Origin: Clostridiales bacterium
Lineage (GTDB): Bacteria; Bacillota; Clostridia; Lachnospirales; Lachnospiraceae
Direction of reading: 5' to 3'
NCBI GenBank assembly: GCA_020859965.1
Contig: JAJBVF010000453.1
Coordinates: forward strand, 1-34,588
DNA length: 34,588 nt
Position numbers and translations under genes: made by a program
The notes under the pieces: generated by a model
Seen by the model: only the letters and a program-made list of their open reading frames with translations
The model's database searches: none
Told to the model about the DNA's origin: nothing
Shown here: piece by piece, positions 3,779-6,458 of the stretch
Layout: the number at the start of each line of letters is the position of its first letter
Numbering within the stretch: position 1 is the stretch's first letter

Positions 3779-4375
3779 TCAAAGTTCCACGCGTCCTTCC
3801 AGCGCACGCAGCAGGGTCATTTCGTCGATATATTCCAGATCACCGCCCACCGGCACGCCGCTGGCGATACGGGTCACTTTGATCCCGGTCGGTTTAATCA
3901 GCTTGCTGATGTACATCGCGGTCGTCTCTCCTTCCAGGCTGGAATTCGTCGCAATGATGACCTCATCCACGTCTCCCTGGAGGCGCTGAATCAATTCCTT
4001 CAGGCGGATATCGCCCGGCCCGACGCCCAGCATCGGCGAGATTGCCCCGTGCAGTACATGATAAACGCCCTCGTATTTTCCGGTCTTTTCATATGCCGCA
4101 AGATCCCGGGTCGTCTCTACTACCATGATCGTCTTCTTATCCCGCGCCGGGTTTGCACAGATCGGGCAGATTTCCTGATCTGTCAAAGTACAGCATTCTT
4201 TGCAGTAACGGACATTTTCCCGCGCATCCGTGATTGCGCCCGTAAGCTGCTCCACACGTTCTTTCGGCATGTGTATGATATGAAAGGCCAGGCGCTGCGC
4301 AGATTTATTTCCTATCCCAGGCAGCGCCGACAGCTCTTCGATCAGCTTTGACATTCGCTTTCCATAATAATCCAT
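3779..4375 (-). CDS. recR: Recombination mediator protein RecR
   Basis: [24 protein letters not shown]4 zinc finger [22 protein letters not shown], Toprim-like [31 protein letters not shown]; 1-nt TGATG overlap with upstream ybaB. Confidence 0.97.
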
Positions 4376-4725
4376 CAGAATCCGAATCCTCCAAGACCGT
4401 TCATGCCGCCGGTCAGCTTCGACATACTGGCCGCAGCTGCCTCTTCTACCTGACGAAGCGCCTCATTTGTCGCTGCCACGATCAGATCTTCCAGCATCTC
4501 AATGTCGTCCGGATCTACGACTTCCTCAGAAAGCTTCACCTTTGTCACTTCTCTCTTGCCGGAAATTGTCACTTCCACAGCGCCGCCGCCTGCGGCTGCC
4601 GTAAATTCTTTCTCCTCCAGTGCTTTCTGGTTCTCCTCCATCTGCTTCTGCATCTTCTGTGCCTGCTTCATCAGATTGTTCATATTGCCGGGCATCCCGC
4701 CCTGAAAACCGCCACGCTTTGCCAT
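4375..4725 (-). CDS. ybaB: YbaB/EbfC family nucleoid-associated protein
   Basis: [20 protein letters not shown]...[45 protein letters not shown]; next to recR. Confidence 0.95.
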
Positions 4726-4829
4726 AATTCGTCTCTCCTTATTTTTTCGTTTTCCCAGATCTCATTGAAGTATCTGTTTTTGCGTTGTTCCCATTCTACT
4801 ATAAAATGATCCAATTTACCACCCTGATT

Positions 4830-5002
4830 TTACTGTAAAAGCGTTGTCAATGGACTGGCTCGTGACACGCTTGCGTGTCTTAGAGACAGTACATTAGACA
4901 ACCCAACCGGTATGAACAAGTAGGGCGGCAGCCCGGATTGTGAATACCGGTGGTGATTGCAAGAGTTCGAAGCACGAAGCAATCAGCTTTTACAAGCAGT
5001 AA
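4830..5002 (+). ncRNA. Candidate multi-branched structured RNA (strand tentative)
   Basis: Nested perfect stems: GTAAAAGC/GCTTTTAC (4835-4842/4986-4993), GTTGTC/GACAAC (4843-4848/4897-4902), GACACG-CUUG-CGTGTC (4864-4879), ACCGGTAT/ATACCGGT (4906-4913/4944-4951), GGGC/GCCC (4923-4934), TGATTGC/GCAATCA (4954-4960/4979-4985); no convincing ORF. Confidence 0.65.
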
Positions 5003-5050
5003 TGCCAGCATATCCGGGAATTAGCTTTTGAAGACCAGTCTATAAATCGC

Positions 5051-5078
5051 TTGAAATCATTCTCAATATGTATATAAT
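5051..5078 (+). promoter_or_regulatory. Sigma-A-type promoter for the malic enzyme gene
   Basis: TTGAAA (5051-5056)-N16-TATAAT (5073-5078); predicted TSS about 5085. Confidence 0.65.
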
Positions 5079-5084
5079 GATACG

Positions 5085-5285
5085 GGGGAGTGAAAGTCAG
5101 GAAGGAAACGGTCCTTGCCCTGATCTGTTCAACGCACGCTGGAAGAAAAACACCCCGCCGCCAGATCATGAGAAAATAATGGAACGCTTTCACTCCGGAA
5201 AAAATGCCAGGATATACAAAACAGAGAGATTCTGGTGCAAAACCGAAGTCAAATATCCCAGAACAGTAGGAGGTACAGTCCAATC
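5085..5285 (+). promoter_or_regulatory. Structured 5' leader (riboswitch-like candidate) of the malic enzyme gene
   Basis: Closing stem GGAGTGAAAG/CTTTCACTCC (5087-5096/5187-5196); inner hairpin TCAGG-AAGGA...TCCTT-gc-CCTGA (5097-5123); ATCTG/CAGAT (5123-5127/5162-5166); downstream competing pairings near the SD (5268-5273). Confidence 0.55.
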
Positions 5286-6458
5286 ATGGATTACGCAAAA
5301 GAATCACTGAAGATGCACTATGACCTGAAAGGAAAAATCGAGATTACATCCCGCGCGGCGGTAGACTCAAAGGATGCCCTGAGCCTTGCCTATACCCCCG
5401 GTGTGGCAGAGCCCTGCCTGGAAATACAGCGCGATCCGATGAAAAGCTATGAGCTGACCCGGCGCTGGAATACGGTAGCGGTCGTTACCGATGGTACGGC
5501 TGTCCTCGGTCTTGGCGACATCGGACCGGAAGCAGGCATGCCGGTCATGGAAGGAAAATGCGTCCTGTTTAAGGCCTTTGGAGACGTAGATGCGATTCCG
5601 CTGTGCATCCGCAGCAAAGACGTGGACGATATTGTAAATACCGTTGCACTGCTAGCGGGCAGCTTTGGCGGTATCAATCTGGAAGATATTTCCGCACCGC
5701 GCTGCTTTGAAATAGAGAAAAAGCTGAAAGAGCGCTGCGATATTCCCATTTTCCATGACGACCAGCACGGAACGGCGGTCATCACGCTGGCCGGTATCAT
5801 CAATGCTCTGAAAGTCGTCGGAAAGAAACTCGATGAGATAAAAATTGTCACTTCCGGAGCCGGAGCCGCAGGAATTGCGATCATACGGCTTCTGATGTCC
5901 ATGGGATTGAAAAATGTAATTATGACCGATCGCCAGGGAGCGATCTATGAAGGCAGAGACGGCCTGAATCCGATCAAGATGGAAATGGCAAAGATCACGA
6001 ACTTCAACCATGAAAAAGGACGCCTTGCAGATGTGATCAAAGGAGCCGATGTCTTTATCGGCGTTTCCGCTCCCGGCACACTGACTGCAGATATGGTTCG
6101 CACGATGGCAAAAGATCCGATCATCTTTGCCTGCGCAAACCCCACGCCTGAAATCTTCCCCGACGAAGCGAAAGCAGCAGGAGCGGCCGTAGTCTCGACC
6201 GGACGTTCCGACTATCCGAATCAGGTCAACAATGTGCTCTGCTTCCCGGGACTGTTCCGCGGAGCGCTCGATGTGCGGGCTTCTGATATCAATGACGAGA
6301 TGAAAGTAGCGGCTGCATACGCACTTGCAGGTCTGGTGAGCGACGACGAATTGAATGCCGAGTACATTCTTCCGCCGGCATTTGATCCGCGAGTGAAGGA
6401 AGCCGTATCAAAGGCAGTCGCAGAAGCGGCAAGAAAGAGCGGAGTCGCAAGGATATAA
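5286..6458 (+). CDS. NAD(P)-dependent malic enzyme
   Basis: YTPGVAEPC, VVTDGTAVLGLGDIGPEAGMPVMEGK, FHDDQHGTAVI, GAGAAGIAI, ACANPTPEI, SDYPNQVNNVLCFPGLFRGALD; ATG at 5286 with AGGAGG at 5268-5273 (ORF track start 5235 is too early). Confidence 0.96.
   Translation: MDYAKESLKMHYDLKGKIEITSRAAVDSKDALSLAYTPGVAEPCLEIQRDPMKSYELTRRWNTVAVVTDGTAVLGLGDIGPEAGMPVMEGKCVLFKAFGDVDAIPLCIRSKDVDDIVNTVALLAGSFGGINLEDISAPRCFEIEKKLKERCDIPIFHDDQHGTAVITLAGIINALKVVGKKLDEIKIVTSGAGAAGIAIIRLLMSMGLKNVIMTDRQGAIYEGRDGLNPIKMEMAKITNFNHEKGRLADVIKGADVFIGVSAPGTLTADMVRTMAKDPIIFACANPTPEIFPDEAKAAGAAVVSTGRSDYPNQVNNVLCFPGLFRGALDVRASDINDEMKVAAAYALAGLVSDDELNAEYILPPAFDPRVKEAVSKAVAEAARKSGVARI

Follow-up and report, generated by a model that had tools for sequence, protein, structure and literature searches.

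Clostridiales-1 was described in 2010 by Weinberg et al. as a likely RNA of Clostridiales and the human gut, probably neither cis-regulatory nor a switch (PMC2864571). The BOX elements of Streptococcus pneumoniae are likewise interspersed and modular; they have optional inner modules and a form folded as RNA, and some of them have been found expressed (PMC3049150). MITE-derived sRNAs have been reported in Coxiella burnetii, as stated in a review of MITEs (PMC10969869). A word search of the text of that review returned neither Clostridia nor Rfam, and RF01699, the Rfam family of Clostridiales-1, is nowhere described as a repeat in the literature that we searched, although such a description may still exist. 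Here, we report that the window, i.e., the whole stretch of 34,588 nucleotides that was analysed, contains a new copy of this already catalogued family. The RNA family itself was known; what is new is that Clostridiales-1 is the body of a dispersed, mobile, and modular repeat. The copy in the window probably belongs to a non-autonomous, MITE-like repeat that has the RNA fold of Clostridiales-1 as its body.

A full-length Clostridiales-1 copy in the window

The folded stretch is a plus-strand copy of RF01699, and its cmscan score lies above the gathering cut-off of 48 bits (Table 1). The copy is undegraded, as the match covers the full length of the model, and it shows the closing stem with three arms, the GCUUGC loop in P2, and the conserved internal loops of P3 and P4 that mark the family. 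The earlier note could not name a family and mentioned the raiA motif as a possibility; cmscan has now settled the first point, and the raiA motif had no match, either across the window at the gathering threshold or within 4720–5300 at E ≤ 1. No Rfam family other than RF01699 matched the element.

The minimum free energy (MFE) of the plus strand at 4800–5020 is −82.1 kcal/mol, compared to −53.7 ± 4.2 kcal/mol in dinucleotide shuffles (z −6.8; 0/200 as good), and the MFE fold consists of four stems, the closing P1 and the arms P2, P3, and P4. All stems that had been quoted from the letters alone, including TTACT/AGTAA and the three branches, were found in place, and the MFE fold has the same architecture. 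The element had also been placed outside any credible gene, which agrees with the lack of an open reading frame with coding statistics over it. As to the degraded mobile or repeat element that the earlier note had raised as the opposing explanation, the family does turn out to be a mobile repeat, but the window copy is full length and not degraded.

Table 1. Features of the Clostridiales-1 copy and its surroundings in the window
Feature	Position	Strand	Basis
ybaB, neighbour of the element	4375–4725	-	
TTTTAC junction, precedes most copies of the TGTAAAAGC subfamily; probably the edge of the element or its target	4828–4833	+	5' flanks of the subfamily
TTACT / AGTAA, pairs outside P1	4830–4834 / 4998–5002	+	sequence check
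Clostridiales-1 RNA element, full length (model 1–166)	4834–4994	+	cmscan RF01699, 113.8 bits, E 3.7e-27
P1, 5' strand GTAAAAGC (partner 4986–4993)	4835–4842	+	MFE fold, sequence check
P2 arm, base GTTGTC 4843–4848 / GACAAC 4897–4902, long extended stem	4843–4902	+	fold, cmscan
P2 tip, GACACG, CTTG, CGTGTC	4864–4869 / 4874–4879	+	sequence check
P3 arm, ACCGGTAT 4906–4913 / ATACCGGT 4944–4951	4906–4951	+	fold, relatives
P4 arm, TGATTGC 4954–4960 / GCAATCA 4979–4985, inner hairpin; abuts P1 strand GCTTTTAC	4954–4985	+	
P1, 3' strand GCTTTTAC	4986–4993	+	MFE fold, sequence check
Degenerate 3' tail; GTGGTGCC...GGCATG hairpin here in intact relatives	4995–5030	+	3' flanks of the subfamily
Sigma-70-like promoter, TTGAAA-16-TATAAT, 11/12 consensus matches	5051–5078	+	consensus scan
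Malic enzyme gene, neighbour of the element	about 5286–6458	+	

Covariation and strand preference

The arms of Clostridiales-1 are supported by strong covariation. When 22 diverse copies were aligned by sequence only, RNAalifold recovered P3 and P4, and 17 of the 22 pairs showed compensatory changes; in relatives, most of the 12 pairs of P3 show such changes. Conserved unpaired motifs occur in both arms, with the internal loop of P3 reading GAaCAAGTAG ... GGATTGtGA. The earlier view of an ornate, multi-branched, plus-strand structure that is not a terminator is upheld. The arm pairs are nearly all Watson-Crick despite the many compensatory changes, and G-U pairs make up 2.6–2.9% in Clostridiales-1 compared to 8.4% in the tRNAs at the same loci, which is unusual for RNA. 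Few G-U pairs and abundant hairpins, as in DNA hairpins, are what a REP-like element would show if a Y1 (RAYT / IS200-IS605) transposase acted on its single-stranded hairpins and the fold were a DNA hairpin substrate, not RNA.

The preference for the plus strand suggested for the window holds for the family, as the sense fold was better than the antisense fold in 69 of the 74 non-redundant copies, by a mean of 9 kcal/mol. Among the controls, tRNAs gave an asymmetry in the same direction and random DNA gave none. Counts of G-U versus A-C pairs (18 vs 11) were too few to assign the strand, and the fold-energy comparison was used. The structure is strand-specific, and the selected form may be RNA or single-stranded DNA, since DNA energy parameters give an asymmetry of the same sign. 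The covariation, the conserved unpaired motifs, and the sense-strand bias, together with the typing as sRNA in Rfam and the listing as a likely RNA, not cis-regulatory, by Weinberg et al. (PMC2864571), also fit a multicopy gene for a trans-acting small RNA that spread by duplication with its own promoter at each copy. We consider such an sRNA gene improbable in view of the ends, derivatives, and placement of the copies described below.

Copy number and distribution

Clostridiales-1 is multicopy and patchy. The draft genome of the window (65% complete) contains 8 copies over the cut-off, and G003 and G008 contain 23 each; congeners reach up to 38 matches per genome, with 0 in two of them, and 14 of 393 genomes pass the cut-off in a Clostridia-wide sample. 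In the complete genome G056, which belongs to another family of the order, 19 matches were found, five of them in a tandem array with a period of 149, and the sequences of its copies diverge widely while the pairing is conserved. Copies within one genome are very different in sequence and still keep the closing stem paired, e.g., as TGATACA/TGTATCA, TATAAGCT/AGCTTATA, and GGAAAGC/GCTTTCC. As for MITEs, the copies are numerous, short, and without coding capacity. Phages, plasmids, and viral contigs contained no DNA similar to the window copy, and neither the ends nor P4 had an exact match there.

Ends and target duplications

Two subfamilies, TGATGCC and TGATACA, carry terminal inverted repeats of roughly 16–19 bp (TGA...TCA) that reach past the Rfam model. 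Young TGATGCC copies run on past the end of the model into a tail, TTTGACCCCAACATCA, that completes the inverted repeat with TGATGCCAGGGTCAAA at the 5' end, and the ends of the TGATACA subfamily are TGATACAAGGGACAAAAG and CTTTTGTCGCTCGAATCA; the end pairs read TGATGCC...TCA and TGATACAAGGGAC...TCA. Direct repeats of exactly 5 bp, TNNNA, flank the ends of both subfamilies. These target duplications are perfect in 18 of 40 elements (a set with a few orthologous copies or an element read both ways, the independent number being slightly lower), whereas permuting the flanks 20,000 times never gave more than 7. The signal is confined to length 5 and offset 0, and T is first and A is fifth in all perfect cases. 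Searches with the end patterns gave 49 matches in G003 and a further 98 over six more genomes; reversed controls gave 0. The exact duplications and the inverted ends argue against an sRNA gene. The duplications in the two subfamilies are of the kind that a cut-and-paste (DDE-type) transposase acting in trans would leave. As for an autonomous partner, no end pair 1–5 kb apart and head-to-head and no transposase with Clostridiales-1 ends were found in seven draft genomes; as drafts break at multicopy transposons, a partner may still exist.

For the TGTAAAAGC subfamily, which includes the window copy, no clean inverted ends or target duplications were resolved from the flanks; most of its copies have a TTTAC-like sequence before them and the GTGGTGCC...GGCATG hairpin after. 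A TTTAC-like sequence in front and a hairpin near the 3' end are further features of the window subfamily that a REP-like element would share, but such an element is very unlikely given the 5-bp duplications and inverted ends of the other subfamilies. Moreover, G002, G003, G006, and G031 have 0 Y1 matches despite 31–35 copies, and Y1 and copy number are uncorrelated over 36 genomes (Spearman 0.06, P 0.74). Y1/RAYT as the mobiliser is not supported, since Y1 genes are missing in several high-copy genomes.

Modularity and orthologous sites

The repeat varies by whole arms. A 95-bp form in several genomes retains the same two ends, P1, P2, and the tail, and lacks exactly P3 and P4; it is also flanked by 5-bp duplications, and such derivatives are a further argument against an sRNA gene. 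In species that are about 91–93% identical at the recR-ybaB locus, orthologous sites are filled, reduced, or occupied by another element. The fabG-fabF site has the full element in G008 and a short remnant of its two ends in G062 and G014, and the galT site has the full element in G008 and one with the core missing in G062. At trpG-trpD, the element is common to G008 and G062, but the P4 arm of the G062 copy is interrupted by an inserted hairpin of 52 nt; in G014, another structured element is present.

This 52-nt hairpin, GYGCTG...CCAGTGG...CGTTTAGCRCCGACCGNAGCGG...GGAGA, is a dispersed repeat in its own right and has no Rfam family. Its pattern matches occur in 32 of 47 genomes of the genus, and G008 has 52 of them compared to 0 in the reversed control. 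The hairpin nests in different loops of Clostridiales-1 copies and in both orientations, at L203 1640–1856 (G062), L061, L054, L063, L090, and L037 (reverse). When the insertion at L203 is compared with the clean ortholog L076, one base seems replaced. The other structured intergenic element, ending GGCCTGCTGTT..., is present at L205 (trpG-trpD of G014) and L206 (G062), where sister species carry Clostridiales-1, and it has no Rfam match.

The body evolves by whole arms, as in the 95-bp form without P3 and P4, the tandem arrays, and the nested 52-nt hairpin. P1, P2, and the ends may suffice for movement, and P3 and P4 may be structured cargo that is maintained because selection acts on the transcript, or on the same strand as single-stranded DNA. 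It is possible, if doubtful, that the cargo is a functional, selected multi-arm RNA: the ends with P1 and P2 would move, the loops of P3 and P4 would act in the transcript and may, e.g., bind a host protein or stabilise the 3' end of the mRNA, and one RNA domain would be dealt to many operons under several sets of ends.

Genomic context of the copies

Many copies lie close behind genes. Of 94 copies, 27 begin −6 to +10 nt from the stop codon of an upstream gene in the same orientation, according to our home-made gene calls from a simple hexamer method; this placement also speaks against an sRNA gene. The mirrored comparison (27 vs 2) is inflated, since the 3' tail of ~16–25 nt was not added. 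Co-directional settings are sense in 38 cases and antisense in 18 (P 0.01), a modest bias. Part of the placement at stop codons may come from TNNNA sites that overlap TGA/TAA stops and from selection against the disruption of genes. For a MITE-like repeat, sense copies at stop codons would persist as compact folds that are co-transcribed without harm to the operon, and the co-transcribed fold may modulate read-through or how stable the mRNA is.

The window copy has a different setting, as ybaB and the malic enzyme gene diverge and the copy sits in the gap that separates them. The best matches of the malic enzyme are from uncultured Mediterraneibacter and other Lachnospiraceae at 89% amino-acid identity, which places the draft genome in the Lachnospiraceae, with Mediterraneibacter as its putative genus. 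In a simple consensus scan of the plus strand, no promoter-like site was found before the RNA and no terminator-like site after it, which tends to speak against an sRNA gene. The promoter-like site downstream of the element probably serves the malic enzyme gene, and the RNA would therefore lie outside the malic enzyme leader. Because the window copy occupies a divergent gap without a promoter of its own, it would more likely be a mobile copy in residence there than a gene dedicated to an sRNA. Between the promoter-like site and the malic enzyme gene, a long imperfect stem, GGGGAGTGAAAG / CTTTCACTCC, lies at 5086–5200, and this region folds no better than shuffles (z +0.7).

If the element regulated ybaB or the malic enzyme gene in cis, it would be expected in the intergenic region common to both, where the copy indeed lies; however, several observations make this role extremely improbable. 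None of the 19 loci read in congeners has the element beside ybaB, and in no congener with ybaB did the matches of the DNA search continue into it. The sampled upstream regions of malic enzyme genes, inspected by eye, lacked such a sequence, copies elsewhere adjoin many unrelated genes, and the best promoter-like site falls between the element and the malic enzyme gene. A conserved cis-regulatory role at either gene is unsupported by the congener comparisons.

There is no clean empty site at the window locus because relatives have differing neighbours there. In the congener G021, the alignment runs up to the element start and diverges beyond it. In element-free congeners (loci L181, L185, and L188), the sequence immediately before ybaB is TTTTACAGTAAAAGC or ATTTGCAGTAAAAGC-like; it resembles the first bases of the window element and could be a remnant or target sequence. 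We infer the mobility of the window copy from the family, the locus-specific presence, and the galT site.

Comparison with known systems

If the mobile-repeat reading is true, an orphan of Rfam that has counted as a standalone noncoding RNA since 2010 becomes the body of a transposable repeat, and the copy number and patchiness of RF01699 are explained. The family would offer a test case of a structured RNA that gains and loses entire arms while carried by a mobile element, and sister species would supply both filled and empty sites. Annotation pipelines would better treat Clostridiales-1 copies as a repeat than as an sRNA gene each.

The window copy shares with Rfam RF01699 the P1–P4 architecture and the strand, and matches it over its full length; in contrast to its record as a standalone sRNA gene, the family here forms the body of a mobile repeat, and in two subfamilies the ends and target duplications lie beyond the model. 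Prokaryotic MITEs, as described in their review (PMC10969869), are similarly short, non-coding, and hairpin-structured, with inverted ends and target duplications as in the TGATGCC and TGATACA subfamilies, whereas Clostridiales-1 differs from MITEs in general by a covariation-supported multi-arm body with conserved internal loops. REP elements and RAYT resemble it as multicopy hairpins in intergenic DNA; unlike them, two subfamilies of Clostridiales-1 have inverted ends and target duplications, and Y1 genes are missing from several high-copy genomes. BOX elements and Clostridiales-1 are both interspersed, modular, and likely to affect co-transcribed genes. However, BOX has an unrelated fold and host group and varies by tandem boxB copies, while Clostridiales-1 loses whole arms, nests a 52-nt hairpin, and has, in two subfamilies, a 5-bp TNNNA target duplication.
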